29,041 nucleotides of DNA, taken from positions 1 through 29,041 of the IMG/VR virus record IMGVR_UViG_3300035698_005664; one strand, 5' to 3'. The DNA comes from a virus. The position numbers and the translations under genes are program-made. Of this stretch, positions 1,902 to 27,405 are shown one piece after another (within the stretch, counting starts at the first letter, position 1; each line of letters begins with the position of its first letter). The notes under the pieces are model-generated. The model saw only the letters and a list, made by a program, of their open reading frames with translations. It had not been told where the DNA came from and made no database searches.

Positions 1902-2059
1902 ACTACCTGATCCAAGTGATTCGGGCGGGTGCCGTGGTCGGCGTAGATCACGTTGACGAACACCCGTCCGAAGCGTACCTCGACAAACTGGTGAAGCTGC
2001 ACGGTGCAGACTTCTGCGACGTTTCCCGAAAAGACATTGATCCACACGATGAATCCTAA
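1898..2059 (+). CDS. Small acidic hypothetical protein (53 aa)
   Basis: GTG at 1898 overlaps the previous stop as GTGA, and its own end overlaps the next ATG at 2049 by 11 bases, so it sits in a tightly coupled chain. It is soluble-looking and acidic towards the end (DIDPHDES), with a predicted helix around EAYLDKLVKLHGADFC. I do not recognise the family. The frame is open upstream to 1667, but that longer form would run through the promoter and the membrane-protein gene, so the GTG is preferred. The evidence that it is real is the coupling on both sides and the protein-like composition. Confidence 0.5.
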   Translation: MNYLIQVIRAGAVVGVDHVDEHPSEAYLDKLVKLHGADFCDVSRKDIDPHDES

Positions 2060-2726
2060 AGACCGAGTCGGCGTCACCAAGCCAAACCTTTCTATCCTCC
2101 CTCTTGCCCCGTTGTACGAACTTATCGCCGGGTTCACCGAGGGTGCCCGTAAGTATGGCCCATGGAACTGGAGAAAAGAGAAAGTCAGCGAGACGATCTA
2201 TGTCGACGCCGCCATCCGCCACCTGAACCAATGGATCTCGGGCGAGACCATCGACCCCGACTCTGGCTTGAGTCATATCACGAAGGCAATCGCTGGACTA
2301 ATCATTCTGCGTGACGCCCAGATCCACGACTGCTCGATCGATGACCGGGGACCGGAACAGAAGATCGACATCAAGGGAGCGATGGAGAAGCTGGCAGCGG
2401 TTGCGGAGAAGTATCCTAACCCGGTTGACGTTGCGGAACAGCCAAGTGAGGGTCGGTGTACCTTAGCCGCCGGGGGTTCATACGTTATGACCAAGTCGGA
2501 TGTCGGAAAAGCTGTCAAGTTGCGTGACGGTACGCACGGAACCATCTGTAGCGTCTCTAACGACCGTTCAGACCCATACCGGGTAGAACTCTTGCTGGAC
2601 GGGACACGCAAGGATGGGCATGGAAACTACGACATCTGTGTTGGAGTCAAAGGCCATTACAACGGGGACTACATCCTGGAAGCTGTACAGCATTGCCCGG
2701 AAGATGTCGTGGTGGTCTACTCGTGA
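2049..2726 (+). CDS. MazZ-like dATP/dGTP diphosphohydrolase-type protein
   Basis: A 225-residue protein beginning MNPKD. The N-terminal ~100 residues carry the pattern GARKYG-WNWR, then AAIRHLNQW-GE-DPDSGLSHITKAIAGLIIL. This is the signature I associate with the 'dATP/dGTP diphosphohydrolase N-terminal' family, an all-helical MazG-related fold whose described member is cyanophage MazZ. The role would be hydrolysis of purine dNTPs to monophosphates, trimming host pools. After a variable linker, the last ~75 residues (from VGKAVKLRDGTHGTI) look like a small beta-barrel appendage common on phage accessory proteins. The ATG at 2049 overlaps the upstream gene, and the end overlaps the exonuclease start as GTGA. 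An earlier in-frame ATG (2004) would overlap the upstream gene by 56 bases and is less likely. The family call is fairly firm; the substrate is inferred. Confidence 0.7.
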   Translation: MNPKDRVGVTKPNLSILPLAPLYELIAGFTEGARKYGPWNWRKEKVSETIYVDAAIRHLNQWISGETIDPDSGLSHITKAIAGLIILRDAQIHDCSIDDRGPEQKIDIKGAMEKLAAVAEKYPNPVDVAEQPSEGRCTLAAGGSYVMTKSDVGKAVKLRDGTHGTICSVSNDRSDPYRVELLLDGTRKDGHGNYDICVGVKGHYNGDYILEAVQHCPEDVVVVYS

Positions 2727-3325
2727 ACCATTACAACCTCATCACCCTGAACGACAATGTCCTCGCAGCGATGGACGTTGAGACGACCGGTCGCGACCCG
2801 TACCACAACGAAGTCTGCCAGTTGGCGATCGTTGCGTTGGACTGCCACCTGAACCCCGTGAAGCACTTCTACACGAACATCCGACCGGAACACCCGGATC
2901 GTATGCACCCGGAGGCGACCGCGACTCACGGGTTGACGTTGGAAGTCTTGAACCAGTCCCCCGACAGATACGAAGTCGCGGATCAGTTGTGGGACTGGTT
3001 CCAGTCCTTCTCCCTGGCACCGGGCAAGCGTCTTATCCCGCTTGTCCACAATGCCCAGTTCGACATCCCGTTTTTACAACAGATGTTGGGGTACGAGTTG
3101 TTCGCCGAGATCGTCGGATACCCAACTCGCGACACCCAGGCTCTCGTCTGCGGAGTCAACGACAAAGCAGCCTTCAACGGGCTTCCGATCCCGTTCCCTC
3201 GTGCAAACCTGGGCACCTGCTGCGAGACGTTAGGGGTTACTCTTGATGGTGCCCACGATGCTCTAGCTGATGCGTTGGCGACGGCTCGGGTGTATCGGGC
3301 ACTACTGGGACAGGGACAGTGGTAG
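2723..3325 (+). CDS. DnaQ-like 3'-5' exonuclease (DEDDh)
   Basis: A 200-residue nuclease. Exo I is MDVETTG with D18 and E20, Exo II is HNAQFDIPFLQ, and Exo III is the HDALADA stretch with the histidine of the DEDDh subtype. All catalytic acids are present. It resembles the proofreading epsilon subunit or stand-alone phage exonucleases and would act in replication, repair or host DNA turnover. The start is taken as GTG 2723, which overlaps the preceding stop as GTGA. An ATG 10 codons upstream is in frame but lies inside the previous gene. No polymerase lies in the window, so whether it proofreads for a phage or host polymerase is open. It is the last gene of the rightward operon, and a strong hairpin follows nine bases after its stop. 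Confidence 0.85.
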   Translation: MNHYNLITLNDNVLAAMDVETTGRDPYHNEVCQLAIVALDCHLNPVKHFYTNIRPEHPDRMHPEATATHGLTLEVLNQSPDRYEVADQLWDWFQSFSLAPGKRLIPLVHNAQFDIPFLQQMLGYELFAEIVGYPTRDTQALVCGVNDKAAFNGLPIPFPRANLGTCCETLGVTLDGAHDALADALATARVYRALLGQGQW

Positions 3326-3437
3326 CGACCGGTCGGGGTCTCCCATTAGGAGACCCCGTGGGGACGACCCACTTGATCCCGTTGACGACCGGTGCCTGAA
3401 TTTTCTTCTCGGTACACTTCGGACATGGTCTAGGCAT
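3237..3437 (-). CDS. Putative small CxxC protein (66 aa), last leftward gene
   Basis: An ATG at 3437 overlaps the end of the SPFH gene by eight bases (ATGCCTAG), the coupling used throughout this operon. The product starts MPRPCPKCTEKK, with a CPKC zinc-knuckle-like pair, and ends in a Pro/Thr/Val-rich tail. Against it, the last ~90 bases lie opposite the exonuclease 3' end and it passes through the convergent hairpin, so the C-terminal part may be an accidental open frame. I do not recognise a family. The gene, if real, is a tail-operon end gene of unknown role. Confidence 0.4.
   Translation of the reverse strand: MPRPCPKCTEKKIQAPVVNGIKWVVPTGSPNGRPRPVATTVPVPVVPDTPEPSPTHQLEHRGHHQE
3334..3358. 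terminator. Hairpin between converging operons
   Basis: A 10-bp perfect stem (CGGGGTCTCC / GGAGACCCCG) with a five-base loop sits nine bases after the exonuclease stop. Neither strand has a T-run after it, so it may be Rho-linked, a transcript-end protector, or an imperfect intrinsic terminator. Its position where the rightward and leftward operons meet argues for a role in ending transcription. Confidence 0.5.
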
Positions 3438-3945
3438 CGTTGATAATCCTGAACGCGGGGCTGATACACAGTTCAGTGAACGTCGACTTCTGAACCCGAA
3501 TCCCCAAGTCCCGTAGTTCACTTTGTAGCTCAAGCGTAAGGGCCACGGATAGTGACTTGGTCTGCTGGAGGAACGATCGGTCCACCGAGCTTAGGACGTT
3601 GACCAGGACCGCCTGGGCCGTCTCTGCCACCGTGTCACTGTAATCCGCTTCACTGTTGATAGCCGTGAGCAAGTCAGCAGGCTTCCATCGGGTCAGAGTC
3701 CGTGCTGACACGCTCGTGCCGTCGGATAATGTGACGGTCTGGACACTGGTCACCATCGACTGCCACCGGATGTCGATCTGCTGTACCTCGGTCACCAACG
3801 GCCAGTACCACACTAGACCCGGTCCGTGGATCGTCGCATCCCCACATCGAGACCACTTGACCATCCGGTCGGTTGGTGCCACCTTGGCGAAGCGTGGCAC
3901 GATGGCGGTTATCTTGTCCGCGAACGCGGGAATCCAATCGAGCAT
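3430..3945 (-). CDS. SPFH/Band-7 domain protein
   Basis: A 171-residue protein built almost wholly of one SPFH (stomatin/prohibitin/flotillin/HflK-C) domain. An amphipathic start (DWIPAFADKITAIVPRF) leads to the diagnostic turn GPGLVWYWPLVTEVQQIDIR. A beta region follows (VTLSDGTSVSART), then the AxDY-type helix stretch EADYSDTVAETAQAVLVNVL and a final GIRV-K beta strand. SPFH proteins oligomerise on membranes and scaffold proteases or lipid domains. Here there is no clear transmembrane segment, only a hydrophobic N-terminus, and the long C-terminal coiled coil of bacterial members is missing. It starts by TAATG overlap with the Cys-rich gene and lies at the end of the tail operon, so it is expressed late. 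A role in virion-membrane contact or host protease control is speculation. Confidence 0.75.
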   Translation of the reverse strand: MLDWIPAFADKITAIVPRFAKVAPTDRMVKWSRCGDATIHGPGLVWYWPLVTEVQQIDIRWQSMVTSVQTVTLSDGTSVSARTLTRWKPADLLTAINSEADYSDTVAETAQAVLVNVLSSVDRSFLQQTKSLSVALTLELQSELRDLGIRVQKSTFTELCISPAFRIINDA

Positions 3946-10834: not shown

Positions 10835-13800
10835 AGCTTGAATGTTCCTCTGCGAAGTTCGCGTTTGATGGAAAGGCCGACTTCTCTAGCTGTTTGAGAA
10901 GGTAGCTGAGATTGTGAACTGACGTTGATATCACCGATTGTGATATTTGTGTTGGAACCAGATCCGGCATCCGACGGTGCGTTACCGGCGTTGATGGCTT
11001 GAAGTTCTGGTAGAAAGTTAGCGGTCGCTCGTTGGTTAGCAACGAACTCCCCAGGTGCGAGCATCGTAGGAATTGTATCCTGCCCACGACTACTACCACC
11101 AGCGTTACGGTACTGGACTCCGCCATGGAAGGCATTACCAGACCCGCCACCACCTGCCGAAGCAGCGGCAGCAGCAGCGGCAGCAGCAGCGAGAGCGGCA
11201 GCCTCCATTCTGCGGAACGCTTGCTCGGCATTGGCGGCGGCTCCAGCCAGCGTACCCGTGGTGGAGGCTAGGCTACTGACTGATCCTTGTGTACCGACAG
11301 CATTCGTACCAATCTTGGCAGTTGATGTTGCGGCGTCTTCTGCGGATGTTGCTGTGAGGTCAATCTGACGTTTCGCTTCTCGAATACCGGAGTCATCCGT
11401 ATCAAGGATAACTTCGATAGGTTGATCGCCCAGTGACTTGAGCGAATCGATGTCTTGTAACAGGTCCTCGCTGAACAACGACTGTTGACCAAGGATCTGG
11501 AACCGTTCTCGAATCGCACCAATTGCCGCGTCAACACCTGATACAAGTTGAAGCCGAGTTGCTTCCTGCAACCCACCAGTGGCTTCATCACTCTTCAAAA
11601 ACTCGGCGAGTTGGAGAAAACCATCTCTGTACTTAATCAACGCTTCGGTGGACGCGGTGCTAACACTGTCCAAGGCAGCGATCGACGGCTGAACAAGTGC
11701 CTGAGCGTTTGCTTCCTGTTGGTCAGAACCAAACAGCTTTGTCTCGCCAGCTTTCTTAAACTCGGCAGCGGCGAGGGCAGCGTTCTTGTTGAATGATGCA
11801 CCGGCAAGTTCGATTTCGTTGGCAGACTCTTGTTGAGAGGCAGCGGCGTCCTTGAAGATCCTCGACCGTTCAGCCAACCCTTGTGTAGGGTCGTCAGACT
11901 GAATACTTGCGAAGGCGTCTTGAAGTTGCTTTGATACAACTGACTCATCGAGAAGTGCATTTAACTTGACAGTCGCCTCGAAGGTCTCGCCGAGCAACTG
12001 GTCCTTGAGGGATGTGATAGAGTTATCCCACTTCACATCCAAGTTGTTAAGTGCATCGAGAGTCTCTTGCTCAACGGACTTCGCAAGGTTGGTCAGACCG
12101 AATCTTTTGACGATGTCAGACCCGGAGAAGTCTGGCAAGTCTTCGCCGATCTTCTCAAGGTTATCTCGGATCTCTTGGAACTGACCGGCGAGTGCCTCGC
12201 GAGGTACTCCGTCTGCGACTTGCTTCGTGAGTTCGTTATAACTTTCGACCTGCTCCCTGATCGAGTCCTTCTGTGCCTCGTTGACATTCTCCAACGCTGC
12301 GAGTTGTTCTTTCAGGATAGTTTTGTTAATGTCCTTACGAAGTTCAACTTGTCGCTTTAGTAGGTTCTCTTCCGACTGGAGGACAGACCGAACTTGCGAC
12401 TGGGCACTCGCGATGTCTCGGACGTTACCACTCGACTTTGCCGCTTGCAACGCGAAGTCGGCTTGGTTCCTAGCTAGGTCAAGTGCTGCTCTTGCAGTGG
12501 CTACGGACTCTTCACTTAATCCAGAGTTGGCAACGAGTTGGGAGGCGTCGGCGGTCGACTGGAACGATCGTGCCAGTGCGGCAGATGACTGTTGCAACTT
12601 TCCTAGTCCAGCAATCGCTTGCTTGAAGTCGAAGTCTGCAAGGTTCTCTGTGGCCTTGGATAGGTCTCGTGTCCCTTGTTCAATCTCGTCGTCGAGACGT
12701 TTGATACCACCACGAATCTGATCGAGTATGCGTTCGCGACTATCACCAAACCCTTCTAAGATATTCGTACCTAAACGGCGCAGCGTACTCTCTGTGCCTC
12801 GGAAGGCTTCGATGATACCATTGGCAGTAGACTCGGACTCACGCAACAGAGTGTTCATGCCACCGCTGGCTCTATCCAGCGAGTCACGAAGTTCTTGTAG
12901 GTTTTCGTCTCCAATCTCTTTGGTGATCTCAACCACGCGGTCCAGGCGATCCAGGTCAAACTGGGTGGCGTCGTCAAACCCACGGGCGGCTTCTTCCAAC
13001 CCGTTGATGACAGTCTGAGCCAGGACTGCACCGGCTGCGAACGCAACAAAACCAGCGGTAATTAACCCAAGTGGAGAGGCAAACCCCAGCATTGCAACTG
13101 CCGCCGCCGAGGCACTAAGTTTAAGACCTACGAACCCGGCAGCAGAAAGTACAGTAGCACCGGCGAAGGCCGTAAGAACTGCCTTTGCATCTTCCGAGCT
13201 ATCGATGATCGTCAAGAAAGTCGAGACAGCTTCGTTCTTCAACTTCAATGCGGACTCGCCGACTTCCTCGAAGATCACACCCAGCTTGGCGGAATTGACT
13301 TCCGCGACACGGGCGTCAAGTTTGTTGATATCGTCAAACGAGGCAGCCAGACCATCAGCACTTTCTTGTACGGTCTTCAATGTATCAGAGGCGATCTTAC
13401 CGTCTTGAGCCAACACGTTGAACACACCGAGGTTGCCACGGATCGTATTGAAAGCCTTGGCGATGGCACGTTCGTCGTTACCCAACTCCGTTGCAATCAG
13501 TTGCAACGCTTGAGCGAAGTCTCCGTTGGTGCGTTCGATAAGTTCGTCGAAGCCTTGTACTCGCAGGCCACGGAACGCCTTGGTCAGTTCCTCGGTCGGT
13601 TTGATAAGTTTGTTGAGGATGTTACGCAGTTGCGTTTGTGCAGTCGCCGCGTCGACACCTGCCAACGAGATCGTAGCGATGGACGATGCAGCTTGCTCGA
13701 AGCTGACACCGACTCGCTCTGCCAATGGGATGACCGTACCGAGACTCCCTGCAAGTTCTTGCAAAGTCAGTCGACCGGCATTGATCGCCCCGAATAGGAT

Positions 13801-22703: not shown

Positions 22704-24365
22704 TTAGAATTTCTCGTCTGGTTGAATTGAACGTCCCGTCGAACACTTGTATCCCATGAAGTGGGCGACCTCGCAATACGCAGCAGCGTGTGCTTGGTGG
22801 TCGTCGGCGATGCTTTTGTAGACTCCGCGAGGGAGCCCCATTTCATCCAACTCATAGGTCCGCATGGGAGCCTTCAAGTGTTCACGAGCCACGCTTGGGA
22901 AGCGAGTCGGGATTGACACCTTACCCTTGTGGAACCTTCCCAACGCGAGGTCGAGGAAGGTGGTCCGGTCGACGGTCAGGATGGGCACGCCCCGTTCGTC
23001 CTCTACTACTTTGATCTCTTTGCCGGTTGTGCCCCGGCGGTACTGACACATGCCAGCGAAGCCCCGGAAACGTCGACAGAATCGTCGAGCGTTCACGGTG
23101 TCCGGGTGACTGTCAACTACTGCGTATCTGACTTGCCACTCTCGCATCAGGTTACAGACCCCGTCCCAGTCTTCTGACGGGAGTCGTAGGATCTGTAAGA
23201 CTTCCATCTTTGAAGTCTCATAGGGGAACTGGCCGGGGTTGCTATCGTACTTGATCTCAGCGATCCAGCAGTCGAGAAATGTTCCAACGTCAATCCCCAT
23301 GTAGATGTTTCGACTGGAGTCCTCGGGACGATCGGTCCCAAGAATCTTTGTGGTGTCTCGGCAAGACTCGATGATCGCGTCGGTAAGCCGGGCACCTTCT
23401 GCGATGTAAGTCTCGCCCAACTTCTGATTCGTGAACTCGGTCGCCGCGGGGTCTGACAGCAGTGACTTCTGATAAGCGTTCACCATTTCTGACGGTGACA
23501 CGGTCATCGAATAAAGCTGGTTGACATGGAATGACCGGTGCCCCTGCACGTTGGTACGTTCTGGTACGAAGCTGGCTGGTGCGAGCCACTCTGTTTTAGT
23601 CTCGTGCGGAAGTACGTTCTTGCACTCGTTGCAAATGTATTTCGACTTGGCGGTCTCTGGGTCACCCAGGTAGTCGCCGCATATCAACACGTTGTCGGGG
23701 AACTTGAGTTGGATGTGCTTTCCGCACGAGGGGCACGGGAAGAAGAATTTCTCCATCGTGCCGTCTTGGAATTGTTTGTTGATACCGAACTCTGGGAGCG
23801 TCGGTGTCGAGAGTGTGAACAGATACTTTGTCAACTGACCAGACAACCGTTCGGTCACCAAGTCATACGTCCCGTCGGCACACCTGTCATACTCGTCGAT
23901 GATCGCAGATGACACGGGGACCGAGACGAGGCCACGGCTCGATACTGATCCACGGATGTAAAGGTTCGTGCGGTCCAGGGTAGTCTTCAAACCGACGGAG
24001 TCACCGCCTTTGAATATACCTTTGAGGTGTGGCGACAGTTCGGTCAGTGCGTCGAGGCGACCCTTGGAGAAGTCCCCCGCGAGCCCTTGAGTTGGTAGGA
24101 CGTACAACACGTCGTTCTTGCGTTCGGATACGACATACAACGCACGGATCATACCGGCGATAGAGTATCCAATCTGTGCTGCCTTCTGGACAGTCACCAG
24201 ACCTTCATCAATGTTAAGGATCTCACGTTGCCACGGAAACCGGTTGAAGTTGACCAGACCCGGGAACGGGTTCGGCATGTGAACGCGAGCCTCGGCCCAT
24301 CGAGTACAACTCGTGAGCGAGGCGTCGGTCAACTTGCTTTGGATTCTGGAGCGGAGGTCAAACAT
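22704..24365 (-). CDS. Terminase large subunit, GpA-like
   Basis: It packages DNA into the head, using ATPase and nuclease domains. There is a deviant Walker A (KAAQIGYS, residues 61-68), Walker B AIIDEYD (154-160) and a coupling motif TLSTP (184-188). A zinc site CPSC...CNEC (C211, C214, C245, C248) is typical of lambda GpA-type terminases. The nuclease begins with GIDVG (D359) and a second acidic site follows near VVDSHPD. Length 553 residues is typical. It begins by TAATG overlap with the 141-aa gene and joins the portal directly. The small subunit candidate is about 3 kb away, across the lysis-type cassette. Confidence 0.93.
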   Translation of the reverse strand: MFDLRSRIQSKLTDASLTSCTRWAEARVHMPNPFPGLVNFNRFPWQREILNIDEGLVTVQKAAQIGYSIAGMIRALYVVSERKNDVLYVLPTQGLAGDFSKGRLDALTELSPHLKGIFKGGDSVGLKTTLDRTNLYIRGSVSSRGLVSVPVSSAIIDEYDRCADGTYDLVTERLSGQLTKYLFTLSTPTLPEFGINKQFQDGTMEKFFFPCPSCGKHIQLKFPDNVLICGDYLGDPETAKSKYICNECKNVLPHETKTEWLAPASFVPERTNVQGHRSFHVNQLYSMTVSPSEMVNAYQKSLLSDPAATEFTNQKLGETYIAEGARLTDAIIESCRDTTKILGTDRPEDSSRNIYMGIDVGTFLDCWIAEIKYDSNPGQFPYETSKMEVLQILRLPSEDWDGVCNLMREWQVRYAVVDSHPDTVNARRFCRRFRGFAGMCQYRRGTTGKEIKVVEDERGVPILTVDRTTFLDLALGRFHKGKVSIPTRFPSVAREHLKAPMRTYELDEMGLPRGVYKSIADDHQAHAAAYCEVAHFMGYKCSTGRSIQPDEKF

Positions 24366-24790
24366 TAGTTGTCCAGAGGGCTTTCCGGTTGAGTGACTTC
24401 CACGTTGTCCTTGACACCGTGGACAGTCTCAATCGTGACCTTCGACTTCGGTTTCGACTTCGGTTTCGATTTCGGTTTCGATTTCTGCTTCTCGGCTTCA
24501 ACTTCGGCGGCATCGCGGAGGACGGGGGTGCCGTCGTCGGCGAACATGATAACCAATCCGAGGATGCGGAGGATCGCTTCGCGGTGCTTCCACAACCAAT
24601 CGGTCCACACCTTGAATCGGTTGATCCATCGGCTGCCTTGGTTCGTGGAGTAGTAGTCGTTCAGTGCACGGTAGGTCGTCGGGTTATCCAGCTTCGCGTT
24701 AATCAGAGCAACGGTTGCCTTGTCATCGCCTACGATTCGTCGGCGGATGAGTCCACGGAGCAGGTTGGGTCGGGGGAGTCGCTTGGCCAT
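24365..24790 (-). CDS. Basic protein with KPKS repeats before terminase (141 aa)
   Basis: The first ~90 residues are helical and basic (RLPRPNLLRGLIRRRIVGDD; STNQGSRWINRFKVWTDWLW; then AILRILGLVIMFADDG). The middle has four copies of a KPKS-type unit coded by a 12-bp tandem repeat, and the end is acidic-neutral. A GAGGAA lies six bases before the ATG, and the stop overlaps the large terminase start as TAATG. I do not recognise a family. With its lysine tail it might bind nucleic acid or the membrane, and its coupling to terminase suggests a packaging or late-stage accessory role. It overlaps the preceding membrane-protein gene by 61 bases. Confidence 0.55.
   Translation of the reverse strand: MAKRLPRPNLLRGLIRRRIVGDDKATVALINAKLDNPTTYRALNDYYSTNQGSRWINRFKVWTDWLWKHREAILRILGLVIMFADDGTPVLRDAAEVEAEKQKSKPKSKPKSKPKSKVTIETVHGVKDNVEVTQPESPLDN
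24441..24488. repeat. Tandem 12-bp repeat, four units
   Basis: Four head-to-tail 12-bp units (TTCGACTTCGGT and close variants) lie inside the 141-aa gene and encode Lys-Pro-Lys-Ser repeats on the leftward strand. Unit number probably varies by slippage, changing protein length in whole four-residue steps. Confidence 0.85.
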
Positions 24791-25032
24791 TCGGGTTCCT
24801 CGTGATAGGTACTCATTGACCAGTGGATCAGGAGTACGGTGAAGTTGGCGACCGCCATCGTGGCGAAAATCGTGAGTGACGGATCAAACGCAAGCGAGAC
24901 CCAGAAACTCGTACACAGTGGGCAGTTCAGTAGCTTGGGAGCTAGTCGTCTAAGCCGTGCCATAATTGAGGCGGTGCAGAGGATGACTGTGACGGCTCCT
25001 GCACCAAGCCCGGCGACGATGACGGATTCCAT
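24730..25032 (-). CDS. Membrane protein with CPLC motif (100 aa)
   Basis: Two predicted membrane helices (about residues 3-24 and 55-73) flank a loop with LLNCPLCTSFWVSLAFD. The C-P-x-C-T-x-F-W arrangement is known from small DUF1360-like phage and sporulation membrane proteins (LL-CP-C-GFW). The CxxC pair may hold a metal or undergo thiol exchange, which is of interest because the next gene upstream encodes a thioredoxin. The tail is acidic and Ser/Asp-rich. It overlaps the thioredoxin gene by 91 bases and the next gene by 61 bases, both unusually long, so all three frames are read in these stretches. Function is unknown. Confidence 0.6.
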   Translation of the reverse strand: MESVIVAGLGAGAVTVILCTASIMARLRRLAPKLLNCPLCTSFWVSLAFDPSLTIFATMAVANFTVLLIHWSMSTYHEEPEWPSDSPDPTCSVDSSADES

Positions 25033-25487
25033 AGTCTCTCTTTTACTTTCTGTTCGGAGATTGCACCGGAGTGAGACTCTCCCACTTCCATATCAAGTTC
25101 GGAGTTGTACCATCGAATGGTTGGGACACTATTGGGTCGGTCCTCCATCGCACTATCGACCAACTCTTGGGTCGCATAAGGGTACAACCCTACATAGGCG
25201 TTGGGCTGGTCGATGTCAATGTAAACTATCTGGTAACCCTGGTCACGAAGTCTCTTCCACGTCGGAACCATCGCACGACACGGGGCACACCACTTGGCGG
25301 AGTAGACGATGAGGATGTCGGCTCGTCCCTCGGGGATTCGTCGGACTTCGACGTCGGGGGAGGCGATACCGAGATCGTATTCAACCACTTCACTAGGATC
25401 GGGTACGAGGTCAGGAGTTTGACCTTGAGCGACTTGTCCGAACGCCAAAGCAAGTACAATCGTAAGTATGGTATTCGCATGGTTCAT
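24942..25487 (-). CDS. Secreted thioredoxin-like protein (WCAPC)
   Basis: A 181-residue protein with a signal peptide (MNHANTILTIVLALAFGQVA, likely cleaved after QGQ near 22-23). A thioredoxin fold follows: strand DILIVYSA, active site WCAPC at 66-70, helix VPTWKRLRDQG, strand YQIVYIDID, and cis-proline in SVPTIRWY (P122). It is thus a periplasmic or external disulfide oxidoreductase; with Cys-Ala-Pro-Cys the redox direction cannot be stated. The C-terminal ~30 residues are a Ser/Pro/Gln-rich tail. It lies immediately downstream of the secreted protease. A reductase role that loosens disulfide-linked wall proteins or activates the protease is a hypothesis. Confidence 0.85.
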   Translation of the reverse strand: MNHANTILTIVLALAFGQVAQGQTPDLVPDPSEVVEYDLGIASPDVEVRRIPEGRADILIVYSAKWCAPCRAMVPTWKRLRDQGYQIVYIDIDQPNAYVGLYPYATQELVDSAMEDRPNSVPTIRWYNSELDMEVGESHSGAISEQKVKERLWNPSSSPGLVQEPSQSSSAPPQLWHGLDD

Positions 25488-25496
25488 GTAGTTCTC

Positions 25497-26321
25497 TTAT
25501 TGATTGATCGGAAGTAGAGCCCAGCAGTCGCCGTAACTCATCATCTTTTCTGCGTCACGTTGTGAGACCCAGAAGCTACCATCAGGCTCGTCGCCAATCC
25601 ACTTTGGTCCCGACACCCACTCGCTGCCCCAACTATTGAGAAGTAGTGCTTGCTTTGAGTTGCCATCGCTGACACCACAAAATACCATCGCGTGGGACCA
25701 TCGGCTCCACCACCTCGAAGTCAACCTGCCCTTAGCGTCGCGCACTTGTCCGGTATGAGACCCGAACCCAACTCCACTCCCAACGATGACTGGGTAGCCT
25801 TGAGAGATCGCGTCTCGCAACTCTTCCCACGTTGTGATATGGACGAAACCTTTCGTCCGGTATCGACTGGCAACCCACTCCAGGGAATCCGGTGGGCCTC
25901 GTGCCCATACGTTCGACCGTTCAGCACTGTACGCTGTCAAGTCGTGCCCGACGACTGCGTAGTTGAACGCGGGAAGAACGCCGATATCCTTACCTGCTTG
26001 TGCCGCCCACGCACAGTTGCTACCGGCTGGTTTTGCAGTCCAGTCGTACAACTTGCGTCCGCTTCCGTAGGACCACTCTGCACTGAATGGAACGCCGTGA
26101 AGCATTTCCATACCCTTGCTGTGAGCGGCACCCACGCACGAACCGGCTGATCCTTGTGACATTGCCTGCGTATTGTAACGGCGGTACAGGACGTAGGTGT
26201 TGCCTTCACCTTGGTTGACCCACGCTTGCGGATACGGGTCTGGCGTCACTGTGAATGACGCATACTCGCCCGACGTAAGTGACACTGTCACGACCGCCGC
26301 GAGCCATAATAGATTCAACAT
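25497..26321 (-). CDS. Secreted papain-like cysteine protease (C1 family)
   Basis: A 274-residue protein with a signal peptide (about residues 1-19). The papain catalytic set is complete: oxyanion Q56 and nucleophile C62 in the stretch SQGSAGSCVGAAHSKGMEML, with the six-residue gap seen in papain, H210 in WSHAMVFCGV and N229 in LLLNSWGSEW. No prodomain of usual length precedes the catalytic domain. Extra cysteines (C103, C215, C266) could form disulfides. The position in a holin cassette, and the lack of a recognisable peptidoglycan hydrolase nearby, suggest it serves envelope lysis, but entry or host-competition roles are possible. AAGGA lies about seven bases before the ATG. Confidence 0.88.
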   Translation of the reverse strand: MLNLLWLAAVVTVSLTSGEYASFTVTPDPYPQAWVNQGEGNTYVLYRRYNTQAMSQGSAGSCVGAAHSKGMEMLHGVPFSAEWSYGSGRKLYDWTAKPAGSNCAWAAQAGKDIGVLPAFNYAVVGHDLTAYSAERSNVWARGPPDSLEWVASRYRTKGFVHITTWEELRDAISQGYPVIVGSGVGFGSHTGQVRDAKGRLTSRWWSRWSHAMVFCGVSDGNSKQALLLNSWGSEWVSGPKWIGDEPDGSFWVSQRDAEKMMSYGDCWALLPINQ

Positions 26322-26471
26322 CTGTGCTTCCTTTCAGGTTACGGTAGTAGCAGGGTATTCCCGTTTGCGTCCAAGTCGTTGTCTCTGATGCTGGTTACCA
26401 GATGAATCATAACCGATTGATCCAGCACCTTCGTCGCATGTGTACTTGTCGACGATACCAGACGCAGTCCA

Positions 26472-27152
26472 TTACAGACCCTTTGAGTAGTTGATGAGGC
26501 CATCACCGATTTCGGAGAAGGCACACTGGTGTGCGGTGAAGTCCTTACCTTGGACCTCTTGAAAGATATGCCGTTGGACCCTCGCCAACACAGCTTCGGC
26601 ACCCTTCTGATTCGTCTTACGGTTCAGATCTGACACAATGTTGAGCAACTCGGTGATTGTGTTCGCGTCGGTCGCGGCTTTGATAAAGTTGTTGCCCAAC
26701 TCCAAGCACACCGTCTTAGGGGCATCGGCGTCAACGCACCACGCTGCAACGTCTGCTGCGAGGTCGCTGGCGGCTGGGACCGGCGGTGCGGGAGCGGGCG
26801 GAGTCGGAGGATTGACAGGTTCGGGCACGCCGACTACAATGACGTGACGGACGATGGATGTCTTCCCACCGGCGATGGCGGTCGCGATGACTTCATAGGT
26901 GCCCGTGGATCGGAAGCTGATGTAACACTCACCCTCGGTCACCTTCGCATCGCCGGTAGGCGTCAACCAAGAGGGTCGCGAGCCGCTTACCTTGAGGGTG
27001 ACAAGTTCACCCACGTCGGCGGTCTCTGGACCCGTGATGGTTACCGATGACTCGACCGTACCCTGAACGTCCAGGGTGTAGTCGACCGCGACAGGTCCGC
27101 CAAGGGCGGCAGCGATCAACATTAAAACAGACGCAATGGTTTTGTGGGACAT
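26472..27152 (-). CDS. Secreted PKD/Ig-like protein with Pro-rich linker (226 aa)
   Basis: A signal peptide (MSHKTIASVLMLIAAALGGP) leads to an Ig/PKD-like domain (residues ~30-105: VTITGPETADVGELVTLKVS ... YISFRSTGTYEVIATA...). A proline-rich linker (PVNPPTPPAPAPPVPA) and a ~90-residue helical domain with ELGNNFIKAATDANTI, QRHIFQEVQ and SEIGDGLINY follow. Four cysteines lie in the exported part. I associate this overall layout with planctomycete genomes and their phages, where it has no assigned function. I take the ATG at 27152 since the signal peptide starts there, though no clear ribosome-binding site precedes it. It may sit on the envelope and assist lysis. The 150 bp between its stop and the protease start hold no clear gene, apart from a stretch of open frame reading on past this stop. 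Confidence 0.65.
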   Translation of the reverse strand: MSHKTIASVLMLIAAALGGPVAVDYTLDVQGTVESSVTITGPETADVGELVTLKVSGSRPSWLTPTGDAKVTEGECYISFRSTGTYEVIATAIAGGKTSIVRHVIVVGVPEPVNPPTPPAPAPPVPAASDLAADVAAWCVDADAPKTVCLELGNNFIKAATDANTITELLNIVSDLNRKTNQKGAEAVLARVQRHIFQEVQGKDFTAHQCAFSEIGDGLINYSKGL

Positions 27153-27195
27153 GGTGAGTTTACTACGCGGTAAGGTGCCTGATTTCTGTGCAAGG

Positions 27196-27214
27196 GTGCC
27201 TAATAAACAGGCAC
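27196..27214 (-). terminator. Small hairpin at the holin stop codon
   Basis: GTGCCT/AGGCAC with a seven-base loop overlaps the holin stop. A further GGTGCCT copy lies about 25 bases downstream at 27172-27180, giving two pairing choices for one arm. There is no T-run, so this is at most a weak terminator or attenuator. Confidence 0.3.
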
Positions 27215-27405
27215 TACTTGACGGGAACCTTGGTGACCAATCGGAGGCCGACATTGACCAGGGCGGTCACGACGGACAAGACGCCGACGGCGACAGGATT
27301 CTCGACGATGATCGTGCTGTCTGCGACTGCGGTGAGGCTAAGGGCCAAGAGGGTCAAGACGTTGAAGATGACGGTCTTGCTGGTGAACAGGGATTTCGGT
27401 TCCAT
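27214..27405 (-). CDS. Holin (63 aa)
   Basis: The product, from MEPKSLFTSKTVIFNVLTLL to a C-terminal GLRLVTKVPVK, has a short charged start. Two membrane helices (about 10-28 and 36-54) are joined by a loop with a NPV turn. 'S-K-T-x-x-F-N-x-L-T-L' with 'N-P-V-A-V' and 'N-x-x-L-R-x-x-T' is the pattern of small phage holins of this type. It would permeabilise the inner membrane at the end of infection. The ATG at 27405 is preferred to an upstream TTG. It is the first gene of the secreted-protein cassette. Confidence 0.72.
   Translation of the reverse strand: MEPKSLFTSKTVIFNVLTLLALSLTAVADSTIIVENPVAVGVLSVVTALVNVGLRLVTKVPVK

Follow-up and report, generated by a model that had tools for sequence, protein, structure and literature searches.

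The protease and its neighbours in the cluster

The stretch of DNA analysed here, referred to as the window, is the linear virus record IMGVR_UViG_3300035698_005664 of IMG/VR, a fragment of 29,041 bp. On its minus strand, between the two terminase genes, lies a cluster that encodes a papain-family cysteine protease together with a predicted exported thioredoxin, a DUF1360 membrane protein, a PKD-like protein and a small holin-like membrane protein (Table 1). These five products had been placed there by a first-pass annotation made without database searches, and all of them were found; a sixth gene that it omitted, encoding a protein of 141 aa, also belongs to the conserved set. From the thioredoxin gene onward the genes overlap or abut, the overlaps being 91 nt between the thioredoxin and DUF1360 genes and 61 nt between the DUF1360 gene and that of the 141-aa protein.

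The central product of the cluster is the protease. Its residues Q56, C62, H210 and N229, pointed out from the first, are exactly as described and, together with S230, W231 and G232 of the NSWG motif, invariant across 30 sequences of the family. The AlphaFold (AF2) model, calculated with these 30 relatives, reached a pLDDT of 91.5 and a pTM of 0.88, against a pLDDT of 35.5 with 3 sequences. The best structural match of this model was xylellain (PDB 3ois; Z 21.1 over 226 residues, rmsd 2.9), ranked first by Foldseek (E 1.4e-10) and likewise by VIA-align at the same Z, and the comparison with papain (1ppn) gave a Z of 18.6. A profile of six protease sequences also matched xylellain (E 1.2e-6). 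On the other hand, no Pfam model matched the window protease alone, and PF00112, which weakly matched one family member, is too narrow for so divergent a family; its cut-off is an aid to detection and not a defining biological feature of family C1A. By its modelled fold and catalytic residues, the window protease is a C1A peptidase, and the papain fold, one of the points on which the earlier assignment could have fallen, is secure.

The N-terminus of the window protease is hydrophobic and the space available is too short for an I29-type prodomain. Two homologues (L018:2817-3815 and L062:5347-6366) start with MERRKFLYYG and MNRRDALKYL, which by eye are Tat-like signals. These N-termini bear on the possibility that the enzyme serves in capsid or virion maturation, as might be suggested by its location next to the terminase and portal genes and by those relatives that have no hydrophobic N-terminus. 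Since members of the window type have export-type N-termini, Tat-like in the two homologues cited, a prohead protease was rejected, and the company of an exported thioredoxin, membrane proteins and an exported PKD-like protein also makes a maturation role very improbable. The catalytic cysteine is the sole conserved cysteine among the 30 members of the family; therefore, a co-exported reductant would not harm the protease.

The partner proteins were assigned with different degrees of support. The thioredoxin, whose WCAPC motif had been noticed earlier and is now accompanied by a Pfam match, carries an N-terminal hydrophobic segment; its C67, C70 and P122, the latter at the place of the cis-Pro, are invariant in six sequences, and its profile matched thioredoxins and PDI in the PDB. 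The two-span protein with the CPLC motif can now be named DUF1360, with a borderline score above the Pfam gathering threshold of 21 bits; C37, C40 and W44 are invariant, the two cysteines having been checked in six relatives, and its profile matched no solved structure. The 63-aa protein has two main hydrophobic stretches and no cysteine, and homologues occur in L003, L009, L015, L017, L018, L062 and the planctomycete contig L096. It had been called a holin, a name supported by its two-span topology and position but not by profiles: no holin profile rose above noise for this family, and a match to phrog_34682 ('holin', E 0.093) was obtained with one of eight members. We consider it holin-like on these two features. 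The PKD-like protein consists of an N-terminal hydrophobic segment, a PKD/Ig-like region, a Pro-rich linker and a helical C-terminal domain. Its four cysteines, emphasized in the first-pass annotation, are present but not conserved (the relative in L009 has two), and no Pfam PKD model matched it; the PKD assignment is weakly supported through the relative in L096, which matched PKD_4 (PF18911) with an E of 2.4e-4 and 21.5 bits against a cut-off of 27.

Outside the cluster, the large terminase subunit is 46-70% identical to those of the related viruses, and the candidate small subunit gave no match in the Pfam scan. A Band 7/SPFH protein is encoded at 3430-3945 of the window (PF01145, E 2e-14), and another is found in the corresponding region of L062.

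Table 1. Genes of the cluster and of its surroundings in the window.
Feature	Position	Strand	Basis and remarks
Portal	22703-20952	-	
Terminase large subunit, GpA type	22704..24365	-	PF05876, E 6.6e-25; 3' neighbour of the cluster
Conserved 141-aa protein	24365..24790	-	Single hydrophobic stretch, charged tail
DUF1360 membrane protein, two-span, CPLC	24730..25032	-	PF07098, 21.5 bits
Exported thioredoxin-fold protein (predicted), WCAPC	24942..25487	-	PF00085, E 1.7e-6
Papain-family (C1A, xylellain-like) cysteine protease, 274 aa	25497..26321	-	Catalytic residues and modelled fold
Exported PKD-like protein (predicted)	26472..27152	-	Homologues precede the protease in eight viruses
Two-span membrane protein, 63 aa, holin-like	27214..27405	-	Topology and position
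Probable small terminase subunit, 193 aa	27460..28041	-	Position; relative in L003 50% identical; 5' neighbour of the cluster

Conservation in viruses and association with Planctomycetota

Relatives of the window were gathered by terminase and protease searches. The protease and thioredoxin genes are adjacent in ten distinct viruses (the window, L002, L003, L004, L009, L011, L015, L017, L018 and L062), and DUF1360 follows them in nine of the ten. The order is protease, thioredoxin, DUF1360 where present and large terminase, and the set lies between both terminase genes wherever the contig is long enough to include them. Seven viruses were seen to carry the holin-like gene and eight the PKD-like gene, homologues of which also precede the protease in the planctomycete contigs L064 and L096; some viral contigs are too short or have other genes at these places. 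Among the relatives, protease identity goes down to about 31% and that of the thioredoxin, in which the CxxC motif is kept, to 22%; synonymous changes prevail between the proteases of the window and L009 (pS 0.83, pN 0.25). The recurrence of this order in ten distinct viruses, down to such a protease identity, excludes chance and indicates a selected module. In GenBank, 50,697 phages gave no match to three different proteases or to DUF1360; a close-homologue search with a single protease as query also gave no match.

Variation at the locus is informative too. Directly upstream of the large terminase, L012 encodes a trypsin-like serine protease (2732-3415) whose N-terminus resembles a signal, and the available sequence has no cysteine protease, thioredoxin or DUF1360. 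This replacement of the block, a single case, suggests that what is always needed is an exported protease, and the joint loss of the three genes fits a redox partnership among their products. Another such serine protease, also trypsin-like and with a signal-like start, occupies the same position in L011 (2754-3434; PF13365, E 7e-16), there in addition to the cysteine protease. A colinear relative, L062, is on a contig of 78.7 kb; its record (L071, L072) further encodes a TROVE/Ro60-type protein, RNA-ligase matches, several DNA methylases and, at L072:1045-1548, a 167-aa protein that by eye resembles a C39-type cysteine peptidase.

The host of these viruses can be approached through the protease. 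At E < 1e-15, the protease profile matched 12 of 392 Planctomycetota genomes, one of them being the genome chosen as centre, and none of 398 Pseudomonadota, where two weak matches were seen (Fisher p ~2e-4). The phage lysozyme PF00959 showed the reverse distribution (6/392 against 122/398), a comparison to be read knowing that rates of lysogeny differ between phyla and that PF00959 is one lysozyme family and not all lysins. Around several of the planctomycete copies there are portal, capsid, tail-tube and terminase genes, and the scan of four prophage regions showed portal, capsid and tail families in them. At six independent planctomycete loci (L093-L095, L098, L099 and L102), of which L094 and L098 are on genome-sized contigs, the protease is adjoined by a thioredoxin of exported or lipoprotein type, and L096 carries both the holin-like and the PKD-like genes. 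In the tree, chromosomal copies are placed among viral ones at more than one position. Within a GTDB-based contig set, the only strong match was a Gemmataceae contig, on which the protease and a PKD-like gene adjoin genes typical of planctomycete chromosomes. The terminase search of Gemmataceae and Rhodopirellula genomes found nothing, and 20 kb of the window compared with 362 Planctomycetota genomes gave short, mostly low-complexity matches, with no long match and no recognised spacer match; a low-complexity repeat in the tape-measure gene (11161-11201) accounts for many spurious ones. Therefore, the planctomycete link anticipated in the first-pass annotation holds through gene kinship with prophages, and the host phylum of the window virus is supported indirectly: phages with this cluster appear to be associated with Planctomycetota. 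The protease gene can in turn serve as a marker of planctomycete prophages and viruses in sequence data.

A possible role in host exit

The cluster occupies a place in which phages often encode an enzyme that cuts the wall. Host exit is its most economical role, in view of how the genes are ordered, the export-type N-termini, the small membrane protein and the absence of a recognised lysin. Pfam scans of the main window genes, PF00877 included, revealed no lysozyme, amidase, CHAP or NlpC/P60 domain, in agreement with the first-pass annotation. Beyond the window, no lysozyme, amidase, CHAP, NlpC or other peptidoglycan hydrolase domain appeared among the 25 leading Pfam families of the 87 genes of L062 (to E ~2e-4). 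There was no strong lysin family among the 25 leading ones for 93 genes of four prophages, and PF01510 and PF00959 were absent from 20 related virus records. One other candidate was rejected: the product of window 2004-2726 falls in two PHROG families labelled 'endolysin; inhibits RNA polymerase', a misleading label for a PF18909 dATP/dGTP diphosphohydrolase (E 2.5e-25).

We therefore propose, tentatively, that the cluster is a host-exit module of Planctomycetota tailed phages, in which an endolysin-like exported cysteine protease has a periplasmic reductant to keep it active or to assist it. The papain-family protease would take the place of the endolysin as the envelope-breaking enzyme. In the window phage, it would pass the inner membrane through its own N-terminal signal. 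Among the relatives, the two Tat-like proteins may use the Tat route, which exports folded proteins, and those lacking a signal would need a pore, for example the two-span membrane protein; endolysins also swap between self-exported and pore-dependent forms. Once outside, the protease would cleave a component of the envelope, peptide or protein, that bears load. Outside the cytoplasm, a papain-type cysteine is readily oxidised, and the exported thioredoxin could keep it reduced in the oxidising periplasm, open disulfides of the substrate, or both. DUF1360, with its CxxC, might feed electrons across the membrane to the thioredoxin, which is a guess. The PKD-like protein may anchor the protease to the envelope or direct it there. 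From the sequences, lysis by a protease and a reductant is plausible.

Several observations weigh against this proposal. No thioredoxin was detected beside the related protease in most of L019-L061, nor in L096, L097, L101, L103 and L104, so that the protease appears to be the core and the thioredoxin an accessory, neither an obligate partner nor generally essential. The unit of protease and disulfide reduction drawn in the first-pass annotation stands as a conserved neighbourhood, not as a fixed pair. The hydrophobic N-terminal segment is absent from some family members (the L032 group, L098 and L102). We know of no C1A peptidase acting as a peptidoglycan hydrolase, while planctomycetes do have peptidoglycan. 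Finally, the window is incomplete and L062 may be so too, the absence of a lysin applying to the 29,041-bp fragment and not to a whole genome, and weaker lysin matches may lie below the families considered (E > ~2e-4 for L062 and > ~6e-10 for the prophages). As a separate observation, in L101, L103 and L104 the place of the thioredoxin, 3' of the protease, is taken by short proteins, likewise exported, that have cysteines in pairs and a C-terminal part containing Cys.

The same incompleteness of the genomes and the non-universal thioredoxin leave room for a cassette unrelated to lysis, one that modifies the envelope late in infection or acts in exclusion, for example by stripping a receptor or an S-layer-like protein from the surface or by folding a disulfide-bonded phage protein, with the real lysin unrecognised or encoded elsewhere. 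The DUF1360-like and thioredoxin phage families (phrog_781 and phrog_22) carry no lysis label, which would agree with it. We regard this alternative as unlikely, given the position with a holin-like gene, the deep conservation in unrelated prophages and the colinear L062, with no recognisable lysin among its leading Pfam families.

The nature of the target is also debatable. The idea of a protein wall in planctomycetes is old (reviewed in PMC3422733), and the cystine-rich wall that the first-pass annotation offered as target is weakened by the work of Jeske and colleagues, who described planctomycete peptidoglycan sacculi that lysozyme breaks (PMC4432640); neither text mentions cystine or disulfides. 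This lysozyme sensitivity would rather suit a strict endolysin, that is, a papain-family enzyme that has become specific for the stem peptides or cross-links of peptidoglycan, with a thioredoxin that only protects the active site and no protein wall involved. Viral fold matches that include phage proteins named 'Peptidoglycan binding-like' and 'N acetylmuramidase (Fragment)' point the same way, as does the swapping, as in endolysins, of forms with and without a hydrophobic N-terminus. Nevertheless, the closest structures, xylellain and cathepsins, are ordinary endopeptidases, and the Pfam scan of the window protease shows no wall-binding domain, for which reasons we judge a strict endolysin quite improbable. 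If true, a class of peptidoglycan endolysins on a C1A fold would also be new.

Returning to the host-exit module, a broader version, in which several unrelated lineages of Planctomycetota phages share lysis by an exported papain-family protease and a periplasmic thioredoxin in place of a peptidoglycan hydrolase, is doubtful at present. If true, it would mean that in the planctomycete envelope a protein component bears load. Phage exit from planctomycetes is little known and their envelope is odd and long disputed; a proteolytic exit system, if real, would make directly testable what holds this envelope together.

Comparison with known systems

Searches of the openly licensed literature on planctomycete phage lysis, papain and thioredoxin turned up no such cassette, nor a C1A peptidase coupled to thioredoxin and DUF1360, linked to planctomycete prophages or given a lytic role. 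The planctomycete phage ZRK32 (Phage-ZRK32) has been described as chronic and non-lytic, in a paper that makes no mention of a protease (PMC10945688). Xylellain-type short bacterial C1A peptidases have already been reported as transferred to tailed phages (PMC10380794). The window protease shares its fold and catalytic set with xylellain, the C1A peptidase of Xylella fastidiosa (3ois), but the two are 19% identical and the former stands in a phage cluster with thioredoxin and DUF1360. The CHAP and NlpC/P60 endolysins belong to the papain-like superfamily as well, with a catalytic Cys and His, but they form a separate cluster of peptidoglycan amidases and endopeptidases (PMC10318531), whereas the window protease has the C1A signature Q..C..H..NSWG. 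An exported thioredoxin with a CxxC membrane protein recalls the periplasmic thiol reductases of the DsbD/CcdA type and their membrane feeders, although for DUF1360 this likeness is an idea and not a demonstrated relationship. With the holin-endolysin cassettes of tailed phages, the cluster shares the late position, the small two-span membrane protein beside an exported hydrolase and the variable export of that hydrolase; it differs from them in having, instead of a peptidoglycan hydrolase domain, a C1A protease with a reductase partner, and in being known from sequence alone.

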